Below are positions 7,201 to 52,128 of a stretch of DNA of 64,000 nt, one piece after another. The DNA is from Calothrix anomala FACHB-343 (lineage in GTDB: Bacteria > Cyanobacteriota > Cyanobacteriia > Cyanobacteriales > Nostocaceae): NCBI RefSeq assembly GCF_014696435.1, contig NZ_JACJQG010000041.1, positions 1 through 64,000 of the forward strand, in the 5' to 3' direction. Position 1 is the stretch's first letter; each line of letters opens with the position of its first letter. The position numbers and the translations under genes are program-made. Under the pieces are notes generated by a model. It saw only the letters and a program-made list of their open reading frames with translations. It was not told the DNA's origin and ran no database searches.

Positions 7201-7476
7201 AGCTAAATTATTCAGGCTTTGTGCCACATCGAGATGTTCAGTACCCAGTACCTTCTCCCGAATTGCTAAGGCTCTTTCTGCCAGGGGGATGGCTTCACTA
7301 TATTTACCTTGCTGATACAACTGCATCGTTTGTTCATTCAGTTGCTCGGCTTCGACTAACTCTGCGGACTGTTGGGCTGATAGTGGTGGTTGGGCTTGTC
7401 CTGCAACTTCCCTGGGTATACTCACCAGTAGTCCTAATGTCATTGCTGTAGCGATTGACCAAGTTAGCAATTTCAT
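4273..7476 (-). CDS. Exported TPR-CHAT protein (kinesin-light-chain-like TPRs, caspase-like peptidase)
   Basis: The chosen start (ATG 7474-7476) gives 1067 residues beginning with a signal peptide (MKLLTWSIATAMTLGLLVSI, cleavage probably after VAGQA). The frame stays open upstream to 7659, but that extension is basic, low-complexity and would bury the signal. Residues of about 50-510 are tandem 42-residue TPRs of kinesin-light-chain type (pattern SLNNLAALYxxQGNYAKAEGLY). A coiled linker follows, then a C-terminal CHAT domain with the catalytic pair His897 (HLATHG) and Cys974 (LSACETG). CHAT domains are caspase-fold cysteine peptidases. The repeat-unit DNA is a 126-bp tandem repeat of high identity. 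Substrate and partners are unknown. Confidence 0.88.
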   Translation of the reverse strand: MKLLTWSIATAMTLGLLVSIPREVAGQAQPPLSAQQSAELVEAEQLNEQTMQLYQQGKYSEAIPLAERALAIREKVLGTEHLDVAQSLNNLAILYSSQGNYVKAEGLYLRSLAIREKVLGTEHLLVANSLNNLAALYYSQGNYAKAEGLYLRSLAILEKVLGQEHPLVAIILNNLADIYSSQGNYAKAEGLYLRALAIREKVLGTEHPDVATSLNNLAALYREQGSYTKAEGLYLRSLAIREKVLGTEHPLVAESLNNLAALYYLQGNYAKAEGLYLRALAIREKVLGTEHPLVAESLNNLAVLYREQGNYAKVEELYLRSLVILEKLLGKEHPLVASSLNNLAGLYRVQGNYDKAEGLYIRSLAIWEKVLGKEHPDVAASLNNLAVLYREQGNNAKAEGLYIRSLAIWEKVLGKEHPDVASSLNNLAGLYKSQGNYAKAEGLYLRSLAIWEKVLGKEHPDVAASLKNLALLYWAQGDINRTTDFFTRALAIEEQNLQLIYAVGSEQRKQNYAQTFSGTTNAAVSLALQQSTNNPALAKLALTTVLRRKGRVLDAMTDTVQTLRTQLANNPETKKLFDDWLDVQQQLAALVYRGQGQEKFEIYQAQIKQLEAEKERLEEQVSAKSAEFRQAIQPVELAAIQAQIPQDAAMVEIVQYDPFNPKAKKGEQWDNPRYAAVVLRAAGEPKWVDLGDAATIDKSVASFRNILAYAPISSQENHNNSKQERGIFQIDSKTAVAQLQELARSLDKQIMAPIRPLLGDAHHLLLSPDGQLNLIPFEALKDEQNQYLVQRYAFSYLTTGRDLLSLQTTAKAAANPVVFANIDYNQQDNTVVAKSRGSNQRSIDFANLKFSSLTATLAEGQQIQKIFPQVNLILGKQATEAAIKQLNAPRILHLATHGFFLPDEEVKPPTNAFNQQLDKAPVLNLENPLLRSGLALAGFNNRQQKADTDDGVLTALEVAGLNLRGTELVVLSACETGLGDVKIGGGVYGLRRALVIAGSQTQLLSLWQVADDGTKDLMVKYYDKLRAGKGRHEALREVQLELLNNPKYQHPYYWASFIPSGNWRGMK

Positions 7477-7956
7477 CGGGTTACGCTTGAAGAGGCTGTA
7501 ATTCGTAATTGGTGACCGGGAAAGATAGATTTTGGGTATTTTAGTTAGTATAGCAGGGTTTATTAGAATTTTTTTAGTGTTTTTTGCCAGATTTAATAAA
7601 GTTTGTCGGTGCATAATCATCTGCTGACGCTGTTGGCGCTGAGTTTTTTGGCGTTGCAATTACATATATCTTTGAGGCGTGGGGGGTTATGTAATTTTTC
7701 ATTTGTCATTGGTCATTAGTCATTGGTCATTTGTCAATAGGGCTTATATGAGTAGACGTAGGGTGTGTTGTCGCGCAGCGCAACGCACCACAGCCCAGAA
7801 TTCGGTGCGTTACAAGCCTTTACAAATATGGCTTCATTAATCAATACATACGCAACGCACCACAGCCCAAAATACGGTGCGTTACACTTTGTGATAACGC
7901 ACCCTACACATACGTATTAATTACGGCAGTTTTCACCTATTTTAACCACATCTGTC

Positions 7957-12740: not shown

Positions 12741-12796
12741 TTGTAGAGACGCGATTCATCGCGTCTTTGCCCAATGCCCAATGCCCAATGCCCCAA
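12741..12796. repeat. REP-like palindrome plus AATGCCC array
   Basis: TTGTAGAGACGCGATTCATC continues into GCGTCTT (12741-12767), one of the dispersed REP-like palindromes. It is followed at once by AATGCCC heptamers to about 12794. Confidence 0.85.
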
Positions 12797-32277: not shown

Positions 32278-32934
32278 TTAATGGGGTTGTCGATGGCGAT
32301 CGCGGTGCCAATTGATTGGGTTATTGATAATATATTGTCGAATATTATCTAGGGCGAATTGATCGCGAATTATTTCATCATGAAATCTTTCTTGCCATCC
32401 AAAACCTTGATAAATTTGATTAATTTCAAACGTACATCGTCCCTTATACCACCGCAAAATTTTAGAAACCGAATTTTTCGACAACATCGGATTAAACAAC
32501 CCCGTCACCCCCCCTCTTGTAGAGACGCGATTCATCGCGTCTCCTTGCGAATTCATCAAATTCACCGCGTCCCCCTGTTTATCGCAATTCACCGCGTCCC
32601 CTCCTTCCTCAAAATCAACAGAACCTTGTGCTTGATTAATTATCAAAATGCCGTGAATATGATTAGGCATAACGCAAAACACATCTATATCACAATTAGA
32701 AAACTGATTAGGAATATCACCCCACAACCTCTGGACAACCTCTCCAACTGGCGATAACTGCATTTCCCCCTGCACAACCTCACCAAAAAAGTATTTTTTA
32801 CCCTGCGTGCAAAGAGTCAGAAAATATGCACCATTGCTAGCATAATTCCATGCTGGTAACCTTGTTGAATCAACGCGATATTTACCTTTATATTTAGGTT
32901 TGTCGTTTTTCCATTCAGGCTCGTAATTATTCAT
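32278..32934 (-). CDS. REP-associated tyrosine transposase (RAYT, Y1/IS200-like)
   Basis: A 218-residue single-strand-specific Y1 transposase. The HUH-type metal motif is in VMPNHIHGILII (88-99), the catalytic Tyr is Tyr163 (RWYKGRCTFEIN), and the end WQERFHDEIIRDQF with NIRQYIINNP is diagnostic of RAYTs. RAYTs cut and join single-stranded REP palindromes. A proline-poor, Gly/Asp/Asn-rich insert (about 104-143) between the HUH motif and the Tyr helix is encoded by three partial or full copies of the REP-like palindrome found all over the window. The catalytic residues are intact, so it may be active. Confidence 0.88.
   Translation of the reverse strand: MNNYEPEWKNDKPKYKGKYRVDSTRLPAWNYASNGAYFLTLCTQGKKYFFGEVVQGEMQLSPVGEVVQRLWGDIPNQFSNCDIDVFCVMPNHIHGILIINQAQGSVDFEEGGDAVNCDKQGDAVNLMNSQGDAMNRVSTRGGVTGLFNPMLSKNSVSKILRWYKGRCTFEINQIYQGFGWQERFHDEIIRDQFALDNIRQYIINNPINWHRDRHRQPH
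32517..32600. repeat. REP-like palindrome copies inside the RAYT coding sequence
   Basis: A full copy (32517-32543, TTGTAGAGACGCGATTCATC then GCGTCTC) is followed by two degenerate half-copies ATTCACCGCGTCCCC (about 32562-32576 and 32586-32600). All are in frame and encode GDAMNRVSTR, GDAVN and GDAVN. Confidence 0.85.
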
Positions 32935-33333: not shown

Positions 33334-33600
33334 TATCAAAGCCTCATTAATGAACTTCTGAGCCTCATTAACGAGTATCAAAGACTGGTTAACGAGTATT
33401 AAAGACTGGTTAACGAGTATCAAAGACTCATTCACGAGTATCAAAGACTGATTAATGAGTATCAAAGACTCATTCACGAGTATCAAAGACTCATTCACGA
33501 GTATCAAAGACTGGTTAACGAGTATTAAAGACTCATTCACGAGTATCAAAGACTGATTAATGAGCTTCCAAGCCTCATTAATGAATATCAAAAACTGGTG
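33334..33600. repeat. 21-bp tandem repeat array (about 12 units)
   Basis: Units of the form GAGTATCAAAGACTCATTCAC or the variant with CTGGTTAAC repeat every 21 bp. On the plus strand they read as heptads EYQRLIH/EYQRLVN broken by TAA in two units; on the minus strand a long frame (33271-33795) reads LILVNES heptads without a credible start. I treat it as a non-coding array or remnant of a coiled-coil gene. The preceding part of the 969-bp gap (32935-33333) shows only HIP1 sites. Confidence 0.8.
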
Positions 33601-33903: not shown

Positions 33904-36900
33904 TTACGAATTATCAATTAACCCTTGCACTCTCGCTACAACTTGCCTAATTTCTTCAGCATCAGGCGATTGGATACGCTGTAATATCTCCAAAGCTGGC
34001 TGCAAATAATCTAGTGCTTGATTGTAATTACCCTGTTGTTCTGCTATATGTCCTAACCACCACAACGTCGCCGCGTTGCCTTGGACATCGCCGATTTGTT
34101 CCTTGAGCGCCAGGGATTGTTGAAAAAGAGCGATCGATTCGGTGATTTCCCCGCTATTGGCTTTGAGTACTCCCAAACAGTGCAACGTCGCCGCTTTGCC
34201 TTGGACATCGCTGATTTCTTCTTTGAGCGCTAGGGATTGTTGATATAGGGCGATTGCTGCGGTAATTTCGCCGCTATTGGCTTTGAGTACTCCCAGACAG
34301 TGCAACGTCGCCGCTTTGCCTTGGACATCGCCGATTTGTTCAAACAGCGCTAGGGATTGTTGATAAAGAGCGATCGCTGCGGTGATTTCGCTGCCATTGG
34401 CTTTGAGTATCGCCAGTTGGTGCAACGTCGCCGCTTTACCTTGGACATCGCCGATTTGTTCAAACAGCGCCAGGGATTGTTGATATAGGGCGATCGCTGC
34501 GGTGATTTCGCCGCTATTGGCTTTGAGTACTCCCAGACAGTGCAACGTCGCCGCTTTGCCTTGGACATCGCCGATTTGTTCAAATAGCGCCAGGGATTGT
34601 TGATATAGGGCGATCGCTGCGGTGATTTCGCCGCTATTGGCTTTGAGTCTCCCCAGTTCGTGCAACGTCGCCGCTTTGCCTTGGACATTGCCGATCTGTT
34701 CTGTGATAGCCAGGGATTTTTGATATAGAGTGATCGCTTCCGTGATTTCTCCGGTATCGGCTTTGAGCATTCCCAAATGGTGACTAATTGATGCTTGCTC
34801 TGGTTTGTCTTCTGGGTGACAAAGATTTAACGCTTGTTGATAATGCTTTAGTGCTTTATCAACTTCACCAACTTGGCTCTCACAATGCCCCATTTCGTTG
34901 AGAACGCGATAGTCTTCAGTAATTTCTAAAGTTGATTTACACAGTTGCAGTGCTTCTCTAAAACGGCTTTGATGCCACAAGCGATTTGCTAAAATGCTAG
35001 CTATGTCGGCAGCTTTTTTTTCTTCTTTCCCCAACAACCCCAGCCGATGAATTTCTAACCTTTGTTCCTCACTTGAAGTTTCCGCCTCTTCCCACCAAAG
35101 GCGATACAATACCTCAGCCGCTTGCTTATACAAACCCTCCCCATCTCCCGGTAACTGCACAGGCAAAATACGCGGCACTCGCAACGCTTCATCATGGCTG
35201 ACTTCCAACAACCCCAACGCCACCGCCCGATTAATATAATCTTCCAAACTAGGGATATTCTCACAAACTGCGGCTAACACTTCCCTTGGTACTGGTAACT
35301 CAAACACCAAACCCCGTGACAACATCTCCCGCATAGTTTCATCCATCTGTTGCAGCAGCGCCTCAGCCAAAACTTGCTCTCGCAACTCCACCGGATCTGC
35401 TGCTAACCTCTGCAAAATTGCTGCTCGATCAACAGTTTGATTTTGCAGAATCTTATCCAACCATTCCAGCAAGCGGGGATTCCCATCCGCCAATTTCTGC
35501 GCTTGTAACTTCAATGCCTCATCAACCTGAGATTTCTCACCAAAAGCAGTGAGGCGATTAAACTTTTTTCGCAAATCTGCGCCTTGCAGTGCATCCAACG
35601 GCTGCTTGTAGAAATACTGCAACTGGCTAAATTCAAAATCGTAACGGCAAGTAATAATGATGCGGTGGGATGTGGAATTTTCTCTAATCGCCCAAACCAA
35701 AGCTTTCAACACCTCGGCTGCTTCCGCTTGCAGCACATAACCCTCATTGCGGGGTGCTAAATTTACCTCAAAGTCATCCAGCACCAACAAAAACGACTTT
35801 CCACTCTCATGCAACTGCTGCAAAACTCGCCGCAGCCGAAATTTCAATTCTTCATCGTAATTTTGTAAGCTTTTACGTTGTTCGTTATCATCCAACTTTT
35901 CCGCCAACCGACTCACTAAATTACCTTCATCAATTCTTCCCACCCACACAACACGCTCAAAATTCAGCAGTCTGTCGCACAGCCTAGCTGCTAAACTACT
36001 TTTACCCAAACCGCCCATCCCATGAATCAACACCCCAATTTCATCGGGAGATTGTGTCAGCACCCTTAAACAATTTTGCAACTGACGGCGACGACCAACA
36101 AAACTTTCTCGCGTCGGGACTTTCACCTTACCCACCGGATCTAAAAACTGGGTAGTCACAGAAGGCGCTGGTGCAGGTTTTCGTCCGCGAGTCCGCAAGG
36201 GTGTGACTAATGCACCGGGTAAATCACCTGCTGCATACAGCCGCAACAAATGCCAATCCCGCGCTTTATTCTTAATTAACGCTTGGTAAGTACTAGCAAC
36301 AGCCTCAACAATTTGCTTCCCCGCCGCTAATTCCTGATACAATGCAGCCGCCGCAGCCGTCGCTTCTGGATCTAATACCTTTTGTCCCCAACCCAAAACC
36401 GCCTTCGCACCAGCTTGCAGCAATTCTTCCGCCATTGAAGGTACATCACCGCCATTACCAGCTTGCCCAGTGCGACAACCAGAGAGGAAAATCAGCTTAG
36501 GCAATCGAAATTGTAATTCTTGGGCGATATCTGCTGCACTGGCATAGTAAGCTTCACCTGTGAAGGTTTCAGTTACAAAGCGGGGTTGCCCATCTTGTAA
36601 AGTAGCATGACCAGTCAGGTGTAAAACATCAAAATAATCCCTGTCGTAACTCTTAACTAAATAACCCAACTCGGACAAACAGCCGCTTTCTTCCACAGTC
36701 AAGGCTAAAGGTTGTCGCGCCGTCGCTACTAAAATCCGCCCTTCCTCGGCTTCAAAATCCAGCACAGGTGCGACATTCAACGGCGAAGTCGCCATAAATA
36801 AAACTTGCAGCGCCCGGTTTTCTGGTTCCCCTGCAATAGTCAATTTTTTTACCTTGCTATCCGACACCCACCGCACCGGCACAACAGCCGGGACACGTTG

Positions 36901-37278
36901 CACCAAAAAGCTAGTACCATCATGCAAAACTTCCCAAGGTAAATGTTGTAGAGACGCGATTAATCGCGTCTTTAAAAATCGCGTCTCTACAAGTTCGGTG
37001 TTTATAGCCAATACAACCCCATCCCGCCGATGCTTATCTATTAAGGATTGCAGATTGCGATCGCTCCCATCCAACCAGTTATACAACCGCCGCCCAGTTA
37101 CCGCATAATCTTCTGGTAAGGACGAAACATAATAATCTCGCTCCGCCAAATCAATCAAATCAGCGATTTCTGAAAGGGGGAGCGATCGCTTTTCATACTG
37201 ATTTGGATTATCAACAAAATACCGTAACTCTACGTAATCACCCGCAATATGCTTCAGTTCGAGGTGGAGAATTTGCAC
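33904..37278 (-). CDS. CHAT-NTPase-TPR protein (STAND-like, caspase-type effector)
   Basis: 1124 residues without a signal peptide, so cytoplasmic. The N-terminal CHAT peptidase (about 110-350) keeps His224 (HLTGHA) and Cys268 (LSGCRTG). A P-loop NTPase of STAND/AAA type follows (Walker A HGMGGLGKSSL near 418-428, Walker B SFLLVLDDFEV), then a winged-helix-like segment and C-terminal TPRs, of which six are near-identical 40-residue units. This is the layout of sensor-switch-effector proteins that trigger proteolysis on ligand binding. The start is GTG at 37276-37278. Residues about 95-109 derive from an in-frame REP-like palindrome. An EACC1-like gene lies 121 bp upstream. Confidence 0.87.
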   Translation of the reverse strand: MQILHLELKHIAGDYVELRYFVDNPNQYEKRSLPLSEIADLIDLAERDYYVSSLPEDYAVTGRRLYNWLDGSDRNLQSLIDKHRRDGVVLAINTELVETRFLKTRLIASLQHLPWEVLHDGTSFLVQRVPAVVPVRWVSDSKVKKLTIAGEPENRALQVLFMATSPLNVAPVLDFEAEEGRILVATARQPLALTVEESGCLSELGYLVKSYDRDYFDVLHLTGHATLQDGQPRFVTETFTGEAYYASAADIAQELQFRLPKLIFLSGCRTGQAGNGGDVPSMAEELLQAGAKAVLGWGQKVLDPEATAAAAALYQELAAGKQIVEAVASTYQALIKNKARDWHLLRLYAAGDLPGALVTPLRTRGRKPAPAPSVTTQFLDPVGKVKVPTRESFVGRRRQLQNCLRVLTQSPDEIGVLIHGMGGLGKSSLAARLCDRLLNFERVVWVGRIDEGNLVSRLAEKLDDNEQRKSLQNYDEELKFRLRRVLQQLHESGKSFLLVLDDFEVNLAPRNEGYVLQAEAAEVLKALVWAIRENSTSHRIIITCRYDFEFSQLQYFYKQPLDALQGADLRKKFNRLTAFGEKSQVDEALKLQAQKLADGNPRLLEWLDKILQNQTVDRAAILQRLAADPVELREQVLAEALLQQMDETMREMLSRGLVFELPVPREVLAAVCENIPSLEDYINRAVALGLLEVSHDEALRVPRILPVQLPGDGEGLYKQAAEVLYRLWWEEAETSSEEQRLEIHRLGLLGKEEKKAADIASILANRLWHQSRFREALQLCKSTLEITEDYRVLNEMGHCESQVGEVDKALKHYQQALNLCHPEDKPEQASISHHLGMLKADTGEITEAITLYQKSLAITEQIGNVQGKAATLHELGRLKANSGEITAAIALYQQSLALFEQIGDVQGKAATLHCLGVLKANSGEITAAIALYQQSLALFEQIGDVQGKAATLHQLAILKANGSEITAAIALYQQSLALFEQIGDVQGKAATLHCLGVLKANSGEITAAIALYQQSLALKEEISDVQGKAATLHCLGVLKANSGEITESIALFQQSLALKEQIGDVQGNAATLWWLGHIAEQQGNYNQALDYLQPALEILQRIQSPDAEEIRQVVARVQGLIDNS
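36946..36993. repeat. 48-bp REP-like inverted repeat inside the CHAT-NTPase gene
   Basis: TTGTAGAGACGCGATT at the left and AATCGCGTCTCTACAA at the right are perfect inverted arms. The 48 bp equal 16 codons and keep the frame, adding roughly ELVETRFLKTRLIAS just before the conserved LQHLPWEVLHDG of the CHAT domain. Confidence 0.88.
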
Positions 37279-37340
37279 ATTCCGAATCCCAACAATCCAG
37301 TATTATCCCCAAGTTTATCACCCCCAATCCCGTCCCATAA

Positions 37341-37387
37341 TTGTAGAGACGCGATTCATCGCGTCTTGAGCCATCGCGTCTTTACAA
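37341..37387. repeat. 47-bp REP-like inverted repeat between the EACC1-like and CHAT-NTPase genes
   Basis: TTGTAGAGACGCGATTCATC is followed by GCGTCTTGAGCCATCGCGTC and TTTACAA. It is a near-perfect palindrome of the same family, set in the 121-bp spacer of the two-gene unit. Confidence 0.88.
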
Positions 37388-37399
37388 TTCATTCCGCCT

Positions 37400-37726
37400 T
37401 TACGATTCCAAAATTTGCCTAATCTCTTCCAATGTCGGATTCTTCAACAACAACCGCCTACCATTGCGCCCGACAATCAACACCTTTTCAATTCTTTTAC
37501 CAGACTGTTTCGCTTGATACTCCTGATACCACTTGCGGATTTGTTCAGCAATTGCGATCGTACCGCCAACAATCCCCACAATAGTCGCCACCGTTGCGAT
37601 TACAGTTTCTCGCGTCGGTTCTTCCTCATTTACCGTATAGTTACCAGATATACCAGGAATCGCCAATAACTCCTCCGTAGCTGCGATCGCATCTTCACCC
37701 TCAATCGATACTAGAATATCCGCCAT
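37400..37726 (-). CDS. EACC1-like small membrane-helix protein, partner of the CHAT-NTPase
   Basis: 108 residues from ATG 37724-37726; a TTG 24 bases upstream is the only alternative. An N-terminal region (MADILVSIEGEDAIAATEEL) precedes a hydrophobic helix (ETVIATVATIVGIVGGTIAI, about 48-67), a basic linker (IRKWYQEYQAKQSGKR) and a C-terminal strand pair VLIVGRNGRRLLLKNPTLEE. This order matches the effector-associated constant component 1 described for NTP-dependent bacterial conflict systems. The match is by pattern, not by search. It is cotranscribable with the CHAT-NTPase-TPR gene. Confidence 0.6.
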   Translation of the reverse strand: MADILVSIEGEDAIAATEELLAIPGISGNYTVNEEEPTRETVIATVATIVGIVGGTIAIAEQIRKWYQEYQAKQSGKRIEKVLIVGRNGRRLLLKNPTLEEIRQILES

Positions 37727-37873: not shown

Positions 37874-40800
37874 CTACAGTCCATTACCAATTAAAATAAA
37901 TGGTGCCCAATAATAAGGATGAGAATAATTCGTCAAATTTCTCCCCGGTTTTGTCGATGAACCTGGTACTGGTTCCACATTAATCGCACCCCTATCACCA
38001 CTTGAATTTGCACTATTATTCCCACGTAACAAACTCAATTGTGCTTCACGTAAAGCTTGGGCTTTTGTTGGTTGATTATCCTTAGCTAAATTTGCATAAA
38101 ATTGCTGCATTAACAAACTAGTACTAGCATCATCTACCAACCATAAAGAAGCCATTACCGCCTTAGCGCGACGGTTGAGAAAATAAAAGCTAACTCCCGG
38201 AATTTCAATCCCATCTTTTGCAGTTTCTCCTAGCGCAGTCTCACAAGCTGAAAGTACTACTAAATGCACATCGCTTAAATCTTCTAAATTATCAATTTGG
38301 GGAATTGGTAATTTCTCTCCTGTTCCTAATACCAAATAAGAATCATCTTGTCTTCCTGGAACAAACACACCATGAGTAGCGATATGCAAAATATTATGTC
38401 CCTTGAGATTATCTCGCAAAGTCCGATAATCAAATTCCTTATTCAGGTATTTTTTCCCTGGATAAATCCCATTTTTATCGCTGGGTGTTTGGCGAATAAT
38501 GGTGTCTAATTCGGTGGGGACATTAGGTAAAGGATTAAACCCTGGTACGGCGTTAGATAAACCTAAGCCCAAAACTTTAGTATTTGCACTTCCCGCAGGT
38601 AGGCGCGATTCGGTATCTGTTAACCCCGCAGATAACACTGTAGAAATATTATAGTTTTCAATCAGATATTGTTGACCATCATATAAAGCACCTATGGGAA
38701 TATAACGCGCAGCCCTATCTAAAGAAAATACCAGATTTTGAATTTTATTGGCTTTTAATTCTGGTTCTACAGGTTTAATTAACCAATCGTAAAGTTGTTT
38801 TCCTGTGGCTTTTAATTCTTGAATATCAGAACTGGGATTTTGTAATAATCTGCGGAATTTATTCACTGTCTCCCGAATTTTTGGCTCGCTTACAGGAACT
38901 TCGACACTTTTAACTACACCACCTTTAGATACCCACCAAATCCAAGTTTTATCCTCAACTACAAAGACATTAATTAAAACTGTACTTTCTTGCGATTCGA
39001 CAATTTTCTTACCCACACTGCGTAAGTCTTGCGCATCTAAAGTACCTCTGTCTTTAGCAAGGCGATCGCGGACATTTTTCTCTAAGTTTTGAATCCTCTG
39101 ATTAAATTCGGAAATCAAAGCATCTCTTTCATCAGCTAATTTAGCTTTCTCTGGACAATTGGTTTTTTGACATTCATCAAACTTTTGCCCAAAAGCAATC
39201 AAACTGCCATAATTTTTAATAATCTTCGCTTCCGTAGGAGTTTGTGCAATTGGCTTAGGAGTAGTGCTAGGTTTGCGATTGGCAAATTCGCTTAATTCTT
39301 GTACCTTTAATAATTCTAACACTTGACCAGCTTCTAAACTCCGCCCTTGGGACATCAATAAATTGGCATATTCCCGATAGATATCAGTAATGCTAGTTCT
39401 ATCAGCATCTTGAATTGCTTGTAGCAGCGATGATTGTAATTCTCGTGATAAACCGCGATTTTTTTCGCGTACCTTTTCAATATCGTTAATTGCTTTTTGA
39501 TAATAAGTTATCGCCGTAGTTGGTTGATTTAATTCTCGATATGTGCGGGCTAAACCTGCATATAATACAGCCCGATTACCAGAATAATTTAGTTGATCGG
39601 CTAAAGCCGCAGCTTGATTATAAGTATCAATTGCTTGTTGATATTGTTTAGTCCGTCGATAAAATCCCCCTAAAAATACTAATATCTGTGATTCCGTTTT
39701 GACTTCTTTATTATCCCTAACTACTTGCAAGCTTTTTTGCAAGTAATCAATAGCTTTTTGATTATCATTTAAACCACCATGTCCTATACCTATAAACAGA
39801 TTATTCAGCATTTCTAATTGCTGTTTATAGTAAGGAATCTTGATTTTTGGTATGAGATTTAAACCTTCTTGAGCAAAAGCAATAGTTTTTTGATAGTCGC
39901 TTTTCACAAAATTATTGATGCTCAAAAACAACAGAGATATTCCTTCAATTTCTGGGATATTTTTTAACTTTCGTGCTGTACTTAATGCTTCTTGTGCTAA
40001 TTGATTAGATTTTTGATAATCTCCTAAATTTATATAAGTAACAGCTAATGTTAATAAAGGTTGAGCAATTGCCGAAGGCTCTTTAGTTTTTTTAGCTATT
40101 TCTAAACTAGCAGAAGCAAATTCTATACTTTTTTGATACTCTTCTACAGAGTCATAAATGTAAGCAATTCGATTTAAAGCTTCTGATTCTAGTTGGAGAT
40201 TTTTCAGTTGTTTGGCAATTTTTAAAGCTTGTTGCGCGAAAGCTAAACTTTTTTCATTTTCTGCATCAGATACAGCTAAGGAACTAGAAGCACTCGCCAG
40301 AGTGAGTAAAATATTAGCCTCCATTTCGGCATTTTTGAGTTCTCGCGCAATTGGTAATGCTTCTTGAGCAAAAGTCAAAGATTTTGCATATTCTCCAGAA
40401 ATGTCATAAGCTTTACTCAATAAAAATGCACTAGTTAATTGAAAGTTTTTCTTAAAGTAATCCGGTGATTGTTTAGTCTTACCTTCCTGAGAAATCTCGG
40501 CTATGAATTTCCAGTCATTATCCTGAAGTTTTTGCGTAATTTCTCTAAATTGTTGTCCTAAAACAATAACTTTCGGATAATCTGCGATCGCCTCATAGGA
40601 ATTTAACAGTTCTCCCATGACTAAAACTTGAAAAATCGTCTGTAATAGCTCTGGTGACATCCCTTTAAAATTTTCACCGACTAAACTGACAAACAAGTCT
40701 AATTCGACTGCTTCTAGTTTAGTTTGCTGAAATATTTCTAATGCTTGTTGACCTGCGGTAATAGCTTGAGGATATTTTTTTTGCTGATTATTAGCTGAGA

Positions 40801-41449
40801 GTTCACCGAATAACAGAAATCCCACGAAATATTTTGATAATCCGGGAAAGTCAGTAAATAATTGTTGTGTATATTCTTCAACTTTTTTACTATCACCCTT
40901 AGCTGTATAAGCTTCTATCAACTGGGGTAAAACCTTAAATTGTAACTCACGGCTTTTCATCTCTTGCGCAATCTGCAAACTCTGCTGTAAGAAACCCAAT
41001 GCTTTATCGGGTTGCTTGATGGTGTTATGTACAGTACCTAAATTCAGCAGATTTTCCGCCTCTAAATTTCTGTTTTTAATTTCTCGTGCAATTACTAAAC
41101 TCTGCTGATATAATTCAATAGCTTTAGGATGATTTTTCTTATTAACATAAACAGTTCCTAAATTCTTGAGAGTTTCCCCTTCTCCCCCAGGGTTTTTAAT
41201 TTGTTGATAAATTTTTAATGCTTGTTCTAAAGACTTGATTGCAGCATCAAACTGATTAGCTTTTAATTGAGTAATTCCTTGCTGTAATAATTTATCGGCT
41301 TGGGTTTGACGGTTTTGATTAGTTTGGGTAGTTGTATTTTGAGCTAAAGTATCCTGAGACACAAAGCGGTTACTTGCTGCTGATGCGACGGGACAAGTTA
41401 AAGAAAATATTAAAGTAAACAGAGTGAGGGACTGAAAATGGTATGACAT
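37874..41449 (-). CDS. Exported TPR-CHAT protein
   Basis: 1191 residues from ATG 41447-41449, which has TTGAGG 8-9 bases upstream and starts a clear signal peptide (SLTLFTLIFSLTCPVASA). An upstream ATG 13 codons earlier would spoil the signal. About residues 40-740 are many degenerate TPRs (NQFDAAIKSLEQALKIYQQI and relatives). A coiled region precedes the C-terminal CHAT peptidase with His1026 (HIATHGVF) and Cys1069 (LSACETALG). The last 30 residues before the end include a Gly/Ser/Asn-rich loop (GNNSANSSGDRG). The substrate is unknown. It is separated from the EACC1/CHAT-NTPase unit by ATTACGA repeats (37849-37873). Confidence 0.88.
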   Translation of the reverse strand: MSYHFQSLTLFTLIFSLTCPVASAASNRFVSQDTLAQNTTTQTNQNRQTQADKLLQQGITQLKANQFDAAIKSLEQALKIYQQIKNPGGEGETLKNLGTVYVNKKNHPKAIELYQQSLVIAREIKNRNLEAENLLNLGTVHNTIKQPDKALGFLQQSLQIAQEMKSRELQFKVLPQLIEAYTAKGDSKKVEEYTQQLFTDFPGLSKYFVGFLLFGELSANNQQKKYPQAITAGQQALEIFQQTKLEAVELDLFVSLVGENFKGMSPELLQTIFQVLVMGELLNSYEAIADYPKVIVLGQQFREITQKLQDNDWKFIAEISQEGKTKQSPDYFKKNFQLTSAFLLSKAYDISGEYAKSLTFAQEALPIARELKNAEMEANILLTLASASSSLAVSDAENEKSLAFAQQALKIAKQLKNLQLESEALNRIAYIYDSVEEYQKSIEFASASLEIAKKTKEPSAIAQPLLTLAVTYINLGDYQKSNQLAQEALSTARKLKNIPEIEGISLLFLSINNFVKSDYQKTIAFAQEGLNLIPKIKIPYYKQQLEMLNNLFIGIGHGGLNDNQKAIDYLQKSLQVVRDNKEVKTESQILVFLGGFYRRTKQYQQAIDTYNQAAALADQLNYSGNRAVLYAGLARTYRELNQPTTAITYYQKAINDIEKVREKNRGLSRELQSSLLQAIQDADRTSITDIYREYANLLMSQGRSLEAGQVLELLKVQELSEFANRKPSTTPKPIAQTPTEAKIIKNYGSLIAFGQKFDECQKTNCPEKAKLADERDALISEFNQRIQNLEKNVRDRLAKDRGTLDAQDLRSVGKKIVESQESTVLINVFVVEDKTWIWWVSKGGVVKSVEVPVSEPKIRETVNKFRRLLQNPSSDIQELKATGKQLYDWLIKPVEPELKANKIQNLVFSLDRAARYIPIGALYDGQQYLIENYNISTVLSAGLTDTESRLPAGSANTKVLGLGLSNAVPGFNPLPNVPTELDTIIRQTPSDKNGIYPGKKYLNKEFDYRTLRDNLKGHNILHIATHGVFVPGRQDDSYLVLGTGEKLPIPQIDNLEDLSDVHLVVLSACETALGETAKDGIEIPGVSFYFLNRRAKAVMASLWLVDDASTSLLMQQFYANLAKDNQPTKAQALREAQLSLLRGNNSANSSGDRGAINVEPVPGSSTKPGRNLTNYSHPYYWAPFILIGNGL

Positions 41450-41601
41450 AACATTCCTCAAATAGCAGTAATCAAATAGCTCAATCATCTATATCTCCCA
41501 TACAGGGTGAACATATGCAAAACTTTCCACGTCCCAGAATCTAGTGATGATTCAAAGACTGTGATATCAGTGCTATAGGGAAGAATTTGGGGATGTGAGG
41601 A

Positions 41602-45882: not shown

Positions 45883-48800
45883 ATGCGTTATTACCGAATC
45901 ATTTTGATTGCCTTTATCAGTTTTTTGGTCGTAATTTCACCAACTTTTCCCCAGAATTTATCAATCTTGTTTTCTGGAACCCAGGTATTAGCGCAAACAC
46001 CCAACCAGAAAACAACTATTGCTGCATCAGGAAGCTTTATTGATTACTTTGCGGAAGAAAGGCAATTTAAAGGACATGAGGGTAGTGTTAACAGCGCCAA
46101 TTTTAGCTATGATGGTCAACGCATAGTCACCGCAGGTAGTGACGGAACCGCCCGGATATGGGATTTTTCGGGTAAAGAATTGCTGGTATTACAAGGGCAT
46201 CAAGGTACTGTGCGCAGTGCTAATTTTAGCCCTGATGGACAGTTGATTGTGACTGCATCTTTTGATGGTACTGCTCGGGTGTGGAATAATTCTGGGCAAC
46301 AGTTAGCTGAACTTAAAGGACATCAGGGTAATGTTAACAGCGCCAATTTTAGCCCGGATGGGAAAAGGATTGTCACGGCTGGTGCCGATCAAACTGTACG
46401 GATTTGGGATATCTCAGGAAAGCAGTTAGCGGAATTTAAAGGACATGAAGGAAGTGTTTACAGTGTCAATTTTAGTCCCGATGGGCAGAGAATTGTCACG
46501 GCTGCGGCTGATAAAACGGCGCGTGTTTGGGATTTATCGGGTAAGGTTTTGGCGCAGTTGCAAGGGCATACGGATACAGTCTGGAGTGCGAATTTTAGCC
46601 CAGATGGTCAGCGCATAGTTACCGCATCTGATGATAAAACGGCGCGGGTGTGGGATTTATCAGGTAAAGTGTTGGCTGAGTTAAAAGGGCATAGTGATAG
46701 TGTATACAGCGCCAGCTTTAGTCCTGATGGGCAGAAGATAGTTACAGCGTCCGTGGACAAAACAGCTTTGATTTGGGATTCCACGGGGAAGTTGGTAGGG
46801 AAATTACCAGGACATCAGGGGGGTGTAAATAGTGTTGGGTTTAGCGCTGATGGCAAGTTCATTGTTAGCGCTGCCAATGATGGTAATACAAAAATATGGA
46901 ATATGAGTACTAAGTTGCTCAGGGAATTACCCGGACAACGCTATCTCAGTTTTAGCTCAAATGGGCAATATATTCTCACTGTATCTGATGAAAAAATTCT
47001 GCAAGTGTGGAATATTGATGGCACAGTACTAGCAGAATTCAAAAGTCAAGATAATGTTATTTATGGCAAATTCAGCCCAGATACTAAGTTAATTGTTACT
47101 CTGTCTGAAACAACCACACAAGTATGGGACATTAAGGGCAAATTAATCAGCCAATCTAAGCATGATAATACTATTAATAAAGCTATTTTCAGTCCTGATA
47201 GTCAATGCCTAGTCACGACTGGTGACTATAACCAAATCAGTCAAATATGGGACATGAAGGGGAAATTACTAGCTGAACTTGAACATGATAGAACTGACAG
47301 TACTAGTTTAATAGGAAACAGTGTCACTTTTAGTTTAGATGGTCAGTATATTATGATCATATCTGGTAATACTGTAGCCAAAGTCTGGGATATCAATGGT
47401 AAGCTAATTTCAGAGATTAAAGATCCAGAAAGTTATATTAATCGTGCCAATTTTAGTCCTGACAATAAGCTAATTATTACTACGGCACATGAGCTAGATA
47501 TTGCCCGGATATGGAATATTAATGGTAAGCTTATTACCCAACTTAAACATGATACTTTTGTAAAAGATGCCATGTTTAGTCCTGATGGGCAGATGATTTT
47601 GACCGCAGATGAACAAGTAAGAATATGGGATCTCAAAGGTAAACTCGTTACCAAAATCCCACAGCCTAATGCTAATGCTTTTTTTCATTTAAATTCTGAG
47701 GGCAAATTAATTATTATCACATCTACAGAAGAAACTACACGATTTTGGGATATTTCTGGCAAGATGTTAAGAGAACTAGTAGGAAGTTATCCTAAGTTTA
47801 GCGCTGATAGAAATTGGACAATCACTTCTGGATACAATACTGTAAAAGTTTGGAATACATCAGGTCAGTTGCTAACTGATATTAATGGTTTTAATAGTGA
47901 TATCTTGGATGTCAGTATAAGTCCAGATGCCAGACAAGTGGCGATCGCATCAGATAATATTGGTGTCTGGTATCTAGCTGCTAAACAATCACCCCAAATT
48001 CAGAATCCTGTAAACCCTGTGCCCCTGATACCAAACTCTAATTCAATTACATCGCATTTTCCTACGGTTGCTGATAACGTAGATTTTAGTTTCGATGGAA
48101 AAAAACTACTTACAATAGCCGAAGAAACTATTCTTGAAGTGTGGGATATTTCTGGCAATCTGTTAGCCGAACTTAAAAAATCATCATATTCTTTAAGAAA
48201 AGCTCACTTTAGCCCAAACGCTAAACAAGTTCTTGTCATATTCTTGGACAATGCTGCTATTTGGGATATTTCAAGTAACAATTTAGTTGAATTAAAGGGT
48301 CATACAGATGCAATTATTGATGCTACTTGGAGTCAGAATGGAAAGTTGATTGTTACCACATCTAAAGATGGGACAACACGTTTATGGGATACAACTGGTA
48401 AACAAATAGTAGTTTTAGAAAAGCAGGATGGTTTTTTATATAGTGTAAGTTTCAGTCAAGATGGACAGCAGATTTTGACTGCAACAGACAAGGCAATTCG
48501 CCTGTGGCATTTGTCAGGTAAACAAATAGCAGAAATCAAGGAGGGGGCTGCAAACGCTTATCTTAGTCAAGATGGAAAGCGGATTATCAGCACATTAAAT
48601 TATGGCACTGCAAAGGTGTGGGATATTTCAGGTAAGCTGCTGTTTGAACTAGGAGAAAAGAACACCGGTTATGTTAATGATGTGTTTTTAAGCCCGGATG
48701 GACAGCGAATTGTAATTGCATCAAAGAGCAGGGATATTTGTGTTTGGGACAACACAGGAAAATTACTAGCTAGATTTGAAAAAGAAAATATGATAAATAA

Positions 48801-51800
48801 ACCATACAATTATAGTTTTAGTCAAGACGGACAGCGCATAGCCATTGTCTTAGAAAATGCTGTAGAAGTATGGGATTTATCTGGTAAATTGCTCTTGAAT
48901 TTCCAAGCCGAAGGCGGAAAAATTGATAGTTTTGCACAAGCTACTTTAAGCGCAGATGGACAAAGTATTGCGATCGCATATTCTGAAGATCCTGCTCGGG
49001 TTTTCGATATGTCTGGAAAACAGCTAGCAATTCTGCAAGGACGCTCGAGTAGTGTTAATGATGCCAATTTCAGTCAAGACGGTAAATATGTTGTGACTGC
49101 ATCATCTGACAAAATCGCCCGCGTTTGGGATATTTCGGGGAATTTATTAACAGAACTTAAAGGACATCTTAGCAGTATTAATAGTGCAAGTTTTAGCCCT
49201 GATGGTAAGCTAATTGTCACGACATCTGCTAATAGTTCGGCTCGGATTTGGGATATTTCTGGTAAACAACTATCTCTGCTCAAAGGAGAGAACGATTTTA
49301 TATCAAATCAAGCTATTGGTTCTAGTGTTGCTAGTGCCAGCTTTAGCCCTGATGGAAAATTTATTTTTACCGTAGATGACAACCTATCGTATGTGCAATT
49401 GTGGACTAATACAGGTAAATTGGTAATGTCGACTTCAGATATTTACCAAATTCAAAATGTTAGGTTTAGTTTAGATAGTAAGCGGATTATGGTAACAGGA
49501 TCTTCCCATATATATGTATGGGATATTTCCGGTAAAATGATAGCTAAAATTCGTATTCCTAAAGGTCAGTTAAATACTTATAGGCTTATTAGTATTAGCC
49601 CAGATGAACAGCATGTTATCCTCTATTCCTGGGTACTCCGGCTGGGTTTTTATTCCACTAATGCCCGTTTATGGGTAGCTAGTTTATCCAATGCTCAACC
49701 GTTAGTCGAGTTAAAAGGGCATCAAGGTTACGTGAACGAAGCCAACTTTAGTGCAGATAGTCAAAAAATTATTGCCACATCTAATAATACTGCTCGTGTT
49801 TGGGATTTGTCAGGGAAGCTATTAACGGAATTCAAAGGACATCAAGGTAATGTTACAAGTGCAAACTTTAGTTCAGATGGCAACAAAATTGTGACATCAT
49901 CAGATGATGGTACTGCTCGTATATGGGACAATTCTGGTAAACAATTAGTTGTACTAAGTTTATCTCAAATCTCTTCTTCCCCAAAAGTTGCAGCCGACAG
50001 ATTACGCGATTTAGAATTTTACGCTCCCAACTGCGCCCAAGCATTTGAACCGTGGCAAAAAGCGCTTAAAATCTATCAAGAAATATCCGATCGCGAAAAC
50101 CAAGCTATCATCCTGGAAAAACTGGGAAATGCTTACTATTGTCTCAGCGATTACACCAATGCTATTAATTCCTATACTCAAGCATCAAGCATTGCCCAAC
50201 AACAAAATTACCCAGAAATCCAAGCCAGAAATCTCTCCAATATCGGCAGCGTTTACAATTCTTTAGCTGATTATGAACCAGCAATTAAATCTTACGCAGA
50301 AGCATTAAAACTTCTCCAACAACAAAATACTCGACTCAAAGCAGAAATTCTCCGAGGGCGAGGTAATGTTTATAATTCCCAAGGTAAATATCACGAAGCT
50401 ATTCAAGATTATTCGCAAGCATTAGCCATTGAGGAGAAGTGGAGAAATGCTGCTGGTATAGCCAAAAATAAAGTCAATCTGGCAAATATTTATTATGCTT
50501 TGGGTGACTACTCAAAAGCTATTCAATATTACAAAGAAACTCTAGATGCAACCCCCAGCGAATCTTTAGCCGGTTTAGGAAATACTTATCTTTCTCTCGG
50601 TGATACCGTCAAAGCAATTGAATTGCACAATCAAAGCTTGGCGAAAGCAAGACAAATTGAAGACAAAGAAGCAGAAGGTAACGCACTAAATAATTTAGCT
50701 TATGCTTTGATGAAAGCCAATAATCTTCCAGAAGCAGAGAAAAATCTCTTGGGAACTATAAAAATTTGGGAATCTCTGCGTGCTGGGTTAAATGATGCTA
50801 ATAAAGTTTCTATCTTTGAAAAACAATCTCGCACCTATCGCCTACTGCAAGAAGTTTTAATTGCTCAAAATAAAATTAATCAGGCCTTAGAAATTTCTGA
50901 ACGGGGTCGTTCTCGTGCTTTTGTGGAATTGCTCTCAAGGCGTTTATCTCCCAACCCAACACAACAATCAAGTATTACTCCGCCAAATATTGAGCAGATT
51001 AAACAAATAGCTAAATCACAAAATGCGACTTTGGTGCAATATTCAATTGTTAATCAAGAAGATAAACAACAAATAAAAGAATCAGAAATTTATATTTGGG
51101 TAGTGAAACCCACAGGTGAAGTTGCATTTCATCGCCAAGATATCAAGGCGTTATTGCAAACAGAAAATAAAACTTTAGCCCAATTAGTTGATATGTCCCG
51201 ACTATCTATAGGGGTGAGAAGTCGCGCAGGTGGAATTATCGCCGCCGCAGCTGATGGTGCAAATCAAACCAAACGCTTACAACAACTGCATGATTTGTTA
51301 ATTAAACCGATCGCAAACCAGCTACCCAGCAACCCCAGCGATCGCATTATTTTCATTCCCCAAGGTTCCCTGTTCTTGGTTCCGTTCCCCGCATTGCAAG
51401 ACGCCCAAAATAAATACTTGGTAGAAAAACACACAATTCTTACTGCGCCATCGATTCAACTACTAGATTTTACACGCCAGCAAAAACAAGCACAGCCAGC
51501 TAAATCAGCTTCTCTAGCAAATTTAGTGGTGGGTAATCCTACCATGCCTTTTGTATCCCTTGTGCCAGGAGAAAAACCCCAACAGCTACCACCTTTAAAG
51601 GGTGCAGAAGAAGAAGCAAAAGCGATCGCACCTCTACTCAACACCAAAGCGATTACAGGTTCTCAAGCAACAGAAACAGCGATCGCCCAAAAAATGACCC
51701 AATCACGTATCATTCATTTAGCAACACATGGATTCTTTGATGATTTACGCGGTTTGGGAAGTGCTATAGCCCTTGCACCCGCAGGTAAAGATGATGGTTT

Positions 51801-52128
51801 ATTAACTGCGGAAGAAATTTTGGATTTGAAACTACAAGCTGAACTCGTGGTTCTTAGCGCCTGCGATACTGGACGAGGAAAAATCACAGGGGATGGAGTA
51901 ATTGGTTTATCTCGGTCTTTTATCAGCGCAGGTGTACCTAGCATTGTAGTTTCTCTCTGGCAAGTACCCGATACACCAACGGCATCTTTAATGACTGAGT
52001 TTTATCAAAACTTAAGTAAAAATCATGATAAAGCTGCTGCCTTAAGACAAGCGATGCTAACTACGATCAAGACCCACCCCGACCCTGTAAATTGGGCGGC
52101 ATTTACTTTAATTGGCGAAGTCAATTGA
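45883..52128 (+). CDS. Giant exported WD40-TPR-CHAT protein
   Basis: 2081 residues. A signal peptide (about 1-38, IILIAFISFLVVISPTFP) leads to about two dozen WD40 repeats (60-1365; pattern SPDGxxIVTAS, TARVWDxSGK), enough for three or four propellers. TPRs follow (about 1375-1650, AINSYTQAS, AIQDYSQALAIEE) and a C-terminal CHAT peptidase (about 1795-2080) with His1949 (HLATHGFF) and Cys1994 (LSACDTG). The first eight repeats are regular and similar; the middle ones (about 360-1000) are degenerate. WD40 and TPR arrays are protein-binding scaffolds that probably position or gate the peptidase. Function is not established. Confidence 0.92.
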   Translation: MRYYRIILIAFISFLVVISPTFPQNLSILFSGTQVLAQTPNQKTTIAASGSFIDYFAEERQFKGHEGSVNSANFSYDGQRIVTAGSDGTARIWDFSGKELLVLQGHQGTVRSANFSPDGQLIVTASFDGTARVWNNSGQQLAELKGHQGNVNSANFSPDGKRIVTAGADQTVRIWDISGKQLAEFKGHEGSVYSVNFSPDGQRIVTAAADKTARVWDLSGKVLAQLQGHTDTVWSANFSPDGQRIVTASDDKTARVWDLSGKVLAELKGHSDSVYSASFSPDGQKIVTASVDKTALIWDSTGKLVGKLPGHQGGVNSVGFSADGKFIVSAANDGNTKIWNMSTKLLRELPGQRYLSFSSNGQYILTVSDEKILQVWNIDGTVLAEFKSQDNVIYGKFSPDTKLIVTLSETTTQVWDIKGKLISQSKHDNTINKAIFSPDSQCLVTTGDYNQISQIWDMKGKLLAELEHDRTDSTSLIGNSVTFSLDGQYIMIISGNTVAKVWDINGKLISEIKDPESYINRANFSPDNKLIITTAHELDIARIWNINGKLITQLKHDTFVKDAMFSPDGQMILTADEQVRIWDLKGKLVTKIPQPNANAFFHLNSEGKLIIITSTEETTRFWDISGKMLRELVGSYPKFSADRNWTITSGYNTVKVWNTSGQLLTDINGFNSDILDVSISPDARQVAIASDNIGVWYLAAKQSPQIQNPVNPVPLIPNSNSITSHFPTVADNVDFSFDGKKLLTIAEETILEVWDISGNLLAELKKSSYSLRKAHFSPNAKQVLVIFLDNAAIWDISSNNLVELKGHTDAIIDATWSQNGKLIVTTSKDGTTRLWDTTGKQIVVLEKQDGFLYSVSFSQDGQQILTATDKAIRLWHLSGKQIAEIKEGAANAYLSQDGKRIISTLNYGTAKVWDISGKLLFELGEKNTGYVNDVFLSPDGQRIVIASKSRDICVWDNTGKLLARFEKENMINKPYNYSFSQDGQRIAIVLENAVEVWDLSGKLLLNFQAEGGKIDSFAQATLSADGQSIAIAYSEDPARVFDMSGKQLAILQGRSSSVNDANFSQDGKYVVTASSDKIARVWDISGNLLTELKGHLSSINSASFSPDGKLIVTTSANSSARIWDISGKQLSLLKGENDFISNQAIGSSVASASFSPDGKFIFTVDDNLSYVQLWTNTGKLVMSTSDIYQIQNVRFSLDSKRIMVTGSSHIYVWDISGKMIAKIRIPKGQLNTYRLISISPDEQHVILYSWVLRLGFYSTNARLWVASLSNAQPLVELKGHQGYVNEANFSADSQKIIATSNNTARVWDLSGKLLTEFKGHQGNVTSANFSSDGNKIVTSSDDGTARIWDNSGKQLVVLSLSQISSSPKVAADRLRDLEFYAPNCAQAFEPWQKALKIYQEISDRENQAIILEKLGNAYYCLSDYTNAINSYTQASSIAQQQNYPEIQARNLSNIGSVYNSLADYEPAIKSYAEALKLLQQQNTRLKAEILRGRGNVYNSQGKYHEAIQDYSQALAIEEKWRNAAGIAKNKVNLANIYYALGDYSKAIQYYKETLDATPSESLAGLGNTYLSLGDTVKAIELHNQSLAKARQIEDKEAEGNALNNLAYALMKANNLPEAEKNLLGTIKIWESLRAGLNDANKVSIFEKQSRTYRLLQEVLIAQNKINQALEISERGRSRAFVELLSRRLSPNPTQQSSITPPNIEQIKQIAKSQNATLVQYSIVNQEDKQQIKESEIYIWVVKPTGEVAFHRQDIKALLQTENKTLAQLVDMSRLSIGVRSRAGGIIAAAADGANQTKRLQQLHDLLIKPIANQLPSNPSDRIIFIPQGSLFLVPFPALQDAQNKYLVEKHTILTAPSIQLLDFTRQQKQAQPAKSASLANLVVGNPTMPFVSLVPGEKPQQLPPLKGAEEEAKAIAPLLNTKAITGSQATETAIAQKMTQSRIIHLATHGFFDDLRGLGSAIALAPAGKDDGLLTAEEILDLKLQAELVVLSACDTGRGKITGDGVIGLSRSFISAGVPSIVVSLWQVPDTPTASLMTEFYQNLSKNHDKAAALRQAMLTTIKTHPDPVNWAAFTLIGEVN

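Follow-up and report, generated by a model that had tools for sequence, protein, structure and literature searches.

The subject of this report is a pair of adjacent genes in the cyanobacterium Calothrix anomala FACHB-343, one encoding a small predicted membrane protein and the other a large protein with a CHAT peptidase-like domain. Both lie in a 64,000-nucleotide stretch of DNA, the window (contig NZ_JACJQG010000041.1, positions 1 to 64,000), which is contig C81 of the 9.24-Mb source genome (G000). On the minus strand, an open reading frame (ORF) of 108 residues at 37400-37726 is followed by one of 1124 residues at 33904-37278, with 121 nucleotides between them, as described in an initial annotation that had read the two genes as an antiphage or cell-death unit. 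Gene starts were placed by ORF and alignment only, and the GTG start of the large gene lines up with valine or methionine starts in relatives. The features of the pair are as follows.

37400..37726, minus strand: small gene, 108 residues, an ATG-initiated ORF for a putative EACC1-like membrane partner
37547..37603, minus strand: hydrophobic helix VIATVATIVGIVGGTIAIA, residues 42-60, with the small-residue patch GIVGG; G55, A60 and the following W66 are conserved
37445..37489, minus strand: C-terminal segment EKVLIVGRNGRRLLL, residues 80-94, a candidate beta hairpin; V82, R91 and L94 are conserved
37279..37399, no strand: intergenic spacer, 121 nucleotides, with a copy of a palindromic repeat (37346-37367)
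33904..37278, minus strand: large gene, 1124 residues, CHAT, NB-ARC-type NTPase and TPR (ORF and Pfam)
36256..36954, minus strand: CHAT peptidase-like domain (PF12770), residues 109-341, Pfam E 2.6e-21
36607..36609, minus strand: codon of His224 (in HLTGH), the predicted catalytic histidine
36475..36477, minus strand: codon of Cys268 (in LSGC), the predicted catalytic cysteine
35998..36021, minus strand: P-loop GMGGLGKS, residues 420-427, of the NB-ARC/AAA_16 NTPase
34063..34775, minus strand: array of near-identical 40-residue TPR units, 5.9 copies

Pfam recognizes three parts in the large protein, in the order CHAT, AAA_16/NB-ARC (E 1.6e-8 and 3.6e-8, respectively) and TPR_12 (6e-43). The NB-ARC match scores 33.4 bits against a cut-off of 23.5, and the AAA_16 match 35.7 bits against 32.6. 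Conservation was judged in an alignment of 39 rows, comprising the window protein and 38 relatives that were picked for an uninterrupted CHAT-NTPase frame from 80 named loci (the best 80 of 104 encoding stretches, with one genome per species). His224 and Cys268 are invariant in all 39 rows, as are G420, G422, G423, G425 and K426 of the P-loop and D502 (Walker B), so the intact dyad and the P-loop switch of the initial annotation both stand. Its near-identical TPRs correspond to a 120-bp tandem repeat of 5.9 copies with 88% matches. The closest large protein among the rows of a CHAT tree is that of Nostoc carneum NIES-2107.

A single stretch of the small protein is strongly hydrophobic, with a mean Kyte-Doolittle hydropathy of 2.27 over the 19 residues 42-60, where the predicted membrane helix lies. 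The same measure is at least 1.6 in 102 of 104 distinct family sequences, and the VGG of the helix patch is conserved in the family. A single predicted transmembrane helix with a small-residue patch is what EACC1 systems contain, and the protein would probably insert in the membrane. Searched alone, it matches nothing above the cut-offs of Pfam or NCBIfam, EACC1 included. A sequence search of the PDB with the small family gave no convincing match (best E 0.22).

Occurrence in relatives indicates that the pair is more than a chance arrangement, since the small protein is matched in 32 of 99 genomes, a count that takes in the window's genome, and the pairing is conserved. At the level of the phylum, its profile matches 31 of 386 genomes, again with its own. 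Two of these were set aside because the matches lie within frames of 618 and 2765 residues that encode other proteins: G070, which is contained in both counts, is probably spurious, and G112, contained in the second, was judged spurious. A match to the CHAT module lies downstream on the same strand in 74 of the 80 named loci, covering at least 370 of its 385 residues in 65. CHAT, which we take to belong to the caspase superfamily, is N-terminal, and in these 74 loci the order is that of EACC1 systems, with a 5′ gene directly before an N-terminal caspase-superfamily peptidase. The gap between small gene and CHAT module, as extrapolated from alignment starts, is at most 20 nucleotides in 30 loci, at most 150 in 53 and at most 710 in 69.

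The same association is seen from the CHAT side. A search with the CHAT module matched 36 of the 99 genomes at 1e-20 or better. Of the top matches from 30 genomes, one per genome, 26 belonged to the same subfamily and four were more distant. The small gene lies just upstream in 22 of the 26. Among the remaining four, L247 has it just downstream, L242 carries a fusion described below, and L232 and L236 have none nearby. In the distant subfamily (L255-L258), no small partner was found in any of the four. The distance matrices of the two proteins correlate at r 0.79 over 38 pairs, a value that includes shared host descent and was reached in none of 2000 Mantel permutations.

A second copy of the pair occurs in the window's genome on contig C18 (L194), with the genes only 2 nucleotides apart. 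Further members were sought among weak CHAT matches of this genome, but 18 of 20 stretches contained neither module; the other two held the C18 copy and a distant CHAT gene with no partner (L193). Hosts of the pair are cyanobacteria, including Pseudanabaena, plus one metagenome-assembled genome (MAG) of the Chloroflexota (Anaerolineales). By their presumed morphology, which was not counted, the named hosts look mostly filamentous; exceptions are Snowella (L109) and Acaryochloris (L144). The pair of Acaryochloris marina (L144, 6001-9867) is located on plasmid pREC3, which is typed as conjugative and offers a possible route of transfer. In G178 (L059, 1501-1872; L222), a very divergent small partner of 124 residues with no Pfam match lies upstream of a CHAT-NTPase gene and hints at how far the small protein can change.

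Candidates for a third conserved gene did not hold up. Across the 80 named loci, the two largest clusters of neighbours (15 loci each) proved to be the small gene's own frame and antisense TPR frames. True neighbours reach at most 12 of the 80 loci and look like local synteny. The upstream TPR-CHAT gene of the window (37874-41488) was likewise rejected, since, across 31 loci taken with flanks of 1.5 kb, the window locus alone showed an identical CHAT part; L026 carries a 35% CHAT part on the other strand.

Within the window's genus the pair is patchy and subject to decay. For instance, two of nine genomes (G001 and G002) have no match to either gene, CHAT is largely missing from one of the three copies in G006 (L003), stops interrupt the CHAT match in G004 (L002/L062), and only a remnant is left in G003 (L026). 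Patchy occurrence and damaged copies of this kind fit an accessory conflict system. Among relatives, L003 and L011 keep the small gene while most of CHAT is gone.

EACC1 proteins are the small partners in a published two-gene conflict system, System 4 of Kaur et al. (2020, eLife 9:e52696; PMC7159879). According to the available text of that paper, they have a transmembrane helix with a small-residue patch near its centre and alpha+beta extensions on both sides, their hosts are actinobacteria and sporadically proteobacteria, and the membrane component is proposed to sense and to activate the caspase. Reference proteins for comparison came from Streptomyces, Kitasatospora and Streptosporangium plasmids, and all ten of those in alignment A2 match Pfam EACC1 (best 3e-33).

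With shallow alignments, a first hhalign comparison of the two families was weak (P 0.036). When 62 small-family sequences were compared with 12 EACC1 sequences, P was 5.4e-4 at a probability of 30%, over 99 collinear columns that span the N-terminal region, the glycine-rich helix with its following tryptophan, and the C-terminal segment. The real score of 27.8 was reached by none of 600 column- or block-shuffled EACC1 profiles (maximum 19.1). Reversed profiles scored 10 to 11, and tiles of the CHAT-NTPase alignment (44 tiles, counting both sides) at most 17.7; the decoys were confined to these shuffled, reversed and CHAT-NTPase profiles.

Rankings by hidden Markov model (HMM) agree in both directions. 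In a search of 6720 six-frame ORFs from the other loci with an HMM from 12 actinobacterial EACC1 proteins, the first nine matches lay in loci that EACC1 searches had fetched. Once those 25 loci were dropped, small-family ORFs (174 of the 6045 left, some being the same gene fetched repeatedly or close relatives) took every one of the first 20 ranks and 46 of the first 50. The reverse search ranked EACC1 ORFs first to fourth among 1053, the four amounting to two proteins that were each fetched twice. On this basis it is probable but not proven that the small family is distantly homologous to EACC1, at a level below the Pfam family limit, and the protein is for that reason named EACC1-like rather than a member of Pfam EACC1.

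Cyanobacteria also contain another set of EACC1-like proteins. In L031 (1453-1836), L146 (1486-1866) and L157 (1444-1827), EACC1-like proteins of 126-127 residues lie just before a gene that begins with a Peptidase_C14 caspase domain; in L146 this gene is divided between two frames. Pfam gives EACC1 as the sole match of these small proteins, at E-values that do not reach the cut-off (1e-4, 0.0014 and 0.006, respectively), and their profile aligns with actinobacterial EACC1 at P 1.1e-4. Cyanobacteria thus appear to hold both forms, one next to a classical caspase and the other next to CHAT. The Pfam EACC1 cut-off is passed in none of the 386 genomes of the phylum. In 201 Chloroflexota genomes, four had weak Pfam EACC1 matches, and the three inspected (L187-L189) were rejected as unlike EACC1 pairs.

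The CHAT-NTPase module is followed by differing C-termini. TPRs are present in 51 of the 61 C-terminal parts examined, a set made up of the 51 named loci whose open frame reaches 820 residues or more, plus 10 additions, some cut by contig ends. GUN4 occurs in L109, L112, both copies of L215, L216, L219, L225 and L242; L118 ends in a TRADD-N-like domain, and L108 is CHAT alone. A tree of 53 CHAT modules places these non-TPR members together in a single clade of 13 (support 100/99), in which L118 and L108 form long branches of unsure placement; C-terminal swaps are therefore few.

L242 lacks a small gene nearby; in its stead, CHAT is preceded by an EAD1 domain (E 2.9e-29) at the N-terminus. In the published network of conflict systems to which EACC1 belongs (PMC7159879), EAD1 serves as an adaptor. 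There are 24 EAD1 matches in the genome of L242, one in the window's genome and none in G006. The single one in the window's genome (G000:C23:11150-11410) shares a frame of 1396 residues with a CHAT match.

The TPR arrays vary in a patterned manner. In 34 arrays of near-identical 40-residue units, changes cluster at positions 2, 5, 27 and 38, followed by 1, 9 or 32. When five positions were picked in half of the arrays, the ratio of protein-changing to silent polymorphism (pN/pS) at these positions was 1.42 in the other half versus about 0.4 elsewhere. At the hypervariable positions pN exceeded pS in 199 of 200 such splits, a figure that is not a probability because the arrays are related, and the excess at positions 2, 5 and 27 is present in 33 of 34 arrays. 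At a textbook set of groove positions, by comparison, protein-changing differences did not exceed silent ones (0.184 vs 0.198), and a similar pattern recurs on 5 repeat pairs of the TPR-CHAT gene at 4273-7659, elsewhere in the window. These two results weaken hypervariability as a special feature; the variation is suggestive and not confined to this system.

The reading preferred here, to which we assign a probability of roughly 0.6, is that the two genes form a cyanobacterial, membrane-coupled conflict system for regulated death or dormancy, organized like EACC1 systems. On the best reading, CHAT takes the place of the classical caspase, within an NLR-like protein that is mostly TPR-ended and, in one clade, ends in GUN4. 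Architecture and the EAD1 fusion of L242 point to such a conflict role.

We propose a mechanism by analogy with the idea put forward for EACC1 systems and with NLR receptors as generally understood. The small protein would consist of a short N-terminal region, one transmembrane helix and a basic C-terminal region that is probably cytosolic, while the large one would act as an NLR-like receptor composed of a CHAT protease, a STAND/NB-ARC-type switch and the TPR array. In the resting state the pair would sit at the membrane, its NTPase switched off. Either the TPR groove would bind an invader-linked ligand, or the small protein would sense a membrane change, and the ensuing nucleotide exchange and clustering would bring CHAT modules together. 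Clustered CHAT might then cleave itself, its partner or other proteins, such that the cell stops, possibly as a defence against phage. A bolder version can be entertained only tentatively: the pair may represent an unnamed EACC1-type branch of cyanobacteria, in which a membrane adaptor licenses a CHAT-armed NLR, and recombination remodels the near-identical TPRs of the latter so that they diverge at a handful of surface positions, yielding strain-specific recognition repertoires comparable to those of fungal allorecognition or plant resistance receptors.

Several results weigh against the conflict-system reading and its link to EACC1. The 108-residue protein fails to reach the cut-off of Pfam EACC1 (PF19953), such that the EACC1 identity of the initial annotation survives as distant profile similarity and not as family membership. 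Among 26 members of alignment A1, three match Pfam EACC1 (best E 0.026), and unrelated families do at least as well in the same table. The best small-family E-value in the actinobacterial EACC1 HMM search is only 0.56 and the best in the reverse search 0.2, neither being significant by itself; the hhalign probability is low, as given above. No significant similarity links the three cyanobacterial EACC1-like proteins to the small family (P 0.22), and adding them to the EACC1 profile lowers the score (P 0.0018). Six of the 80 loci have no CHAT match downstream of the small gene; among them, L121 ends 168 nucleotides past it and L095 has the gene order reversed. Domain swapping, judged from the C-termini, looks rarer than in published EACC1 systems. 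Defence genes are not clearly enriched around the pair: a PADLOC scan of 95 neighbour and 95 control proteins at E 1e-15, with controls taken from round coordinates in nine genomes, matched 67 families for neighbours and 57 for controls (families, not proteins). Among the matches listed (25 each) were DndD, PbeC and MTase_II for neighbours and Orf5, BrxHI and PD-T4-6 for controls. PADLOC (PADLOC-DB 2.0.0) has no match for the small protein, and the large one matches no models beyond a generic TPR one and a weak candidate. Finally, viral contigs searched with one short pattern yielded no confirmed relative and hence no direct link to phage.

Three other explanations deserve consideration. The small membrane protein could itself be the executioner, cleaved or released by CHAT to form an oligomeric membrane pore, with the NLR part only gating the protease. 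Caspase-like proteases do activate bacterial gasdermins as pores, the small single-helix protein with its GIVGG patch is encoded next to a protease gene in a strongly kept order, and L003 and L011 keep the small gene with most of CHAT gone. Yet that last observation cuts both ways, as a lethal protein kept without its protease would have to be harmless. Moreover, no gasdermin or known pore former is found among the Pfam matches of the small protein and the A1 members, an EAD1 fusion can replace the small protein, and EACC1 proteins are proposed as sensors in the available text of PMC7159879. A pore-forming role appears unlikely.

A regulator of development or cell division in filamentous cyanobacteria is more improbable still. 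HetF of Anabaena, described in the available text of PMC8406250 as a CHAT-domain putative protease required for heterocyst formation and linked to division, shows that cyanobacterial CHAT proteins can be developmental, and the filamentous impression given by the hosts fits such a role. Against it stand the patchy distribution, with no match in 67 of 99 genomes, and the broken or partly deleted copies in some close relatives. The pair is also present in Pseudanabaena, on the conjugative plasmid of Acaryochloris and in the Anaerolineales MAG, where heterocysts are presumably not formed, and HetF presumably has neither an NB-ARC/TPR part nor a small partner. Very improbable, in our estimate, is an ordinary signalling or stress-adaptation pair devoid of any conflict role, in which, for example, GUN4 senses tetrapyrrole or the photosynthetic state in some members. 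The GUN4 C-termini of one clade and the neighbourhood with no clear defence enrichment would accord with it, but TPRs predominate among the scanned C-termini, the near-identical arrays vary at a few positions, and the combination of CHAT, STAND switch, differing C-termini and EAD1 fusion fits the conflict network published in PMC7159879, as far as its text is available.

The surroundings of the locus contain repeats and other CHAT genes. One repeat copy falls within the large gene itself.

36950..37005, minus strand: copy of a dispersed palindromic repeat, in frame in the large gene, about residues 92-110

The core of this palindromic repeat, GAGACGCGATTNATCGCGTCT, is matched 305 times in forward and 300 times in reverse orientation across the genome, with some places shared between the two counts and 0 matches for a control, and further copies lie at 12746, 32247, 32522 and 42209. 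The in-frame copy adds about 12 residues to the CHAT gene, which are absent from 20 of the 23 other rows shown. Just 3′ of the pair, a 21-bp tandem repeat of 11 copies occupies 33367-33597, and ORFs made of similar repeats occur downstream in 9 of the 80 named loci. A gene resembling tyrosine transposases associated with repetitive extragenic palindromes (REP-associated, IS200-like) adjoins the locus at 32278-32934. Three further CHAT genes are located in the window (37874-41488, 4273-7659 and 45883-52128), and the genome as a whole has 93 CHAT matches. In G006 (L215, G006:C1:4645500-4664900), a Type I restriction-modification operon lies between two GUN4-type copies of the pair, which counts in favour of the conflict-system reading.

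If the conflict-system reading is true, cyanobacteria would join the actinobacteria and proteobacteria for which this predicted suicide or immunity class has been published, with another protease in use, and a small conserved membrane partner would be added to one kind of CHAT-NLR protein in a genome replete with CHAT. The system also offers a compact experimental handle, as one 108-residue protein and one cysteine mutant make the mechanism testable in laboratory Nostoc or Anabaena, and comparison of TPR- with GUN4-ended members could reveal which part senses and which executes.

Literature searches combining CHAT with cyanobacteria, NB-ARC, TPR, NTPase or NLR, with few subscription journals covered, found no paper describing the pair by its title or the start of its abstract. 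The word CHAT does not occur in PMC7159879. The EACC1 system and the pair nevertheless have much in common: a 5′ gene for a small transmembrane protein with a patch of glycine or other small residues, an adjacent 3′ gene for an N-terminal caspase-superfamily peptidase, a variable C-terminus able to hold STAND NTPases and repeats, and links to EAD1. They differ in that the small protein here scores under the Pfam cut-off, the peptidase is CHAT, the hosts are cyanobacteria and one Chloroflexota MAG, and the kinds of C-terminus (TPR, GUN4, TRADD-N-like or none) are far fewer than in published EACC1 systems. The TRADD-N/EACC2-caspase systems (Kaur et al. 2021, PMC8195603) likewise combine a constant caspase module with a variable C-terminus in two-gene neighbourhoods, and the TRADD-N-like end of L118 provides a link to them. 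However, the EACC2 module shares a protein with its caspase, and the available text of PMC8195603 describes no comparable small transmembrane partner. HetF is also a cyanobacterial CHAT protein, but differs in architecture and in its developmental role. NLRs of fungi and bacteria are built of an N-terminal effector, CHAT or other, a switch of the NB-ARC/NACHT type, and near-identical repeats that form a superstructure. The pair described here resembles such proteins in its succession of effector, switch and repeats, and differs from them by its dedicated gene for a small membrane partner.

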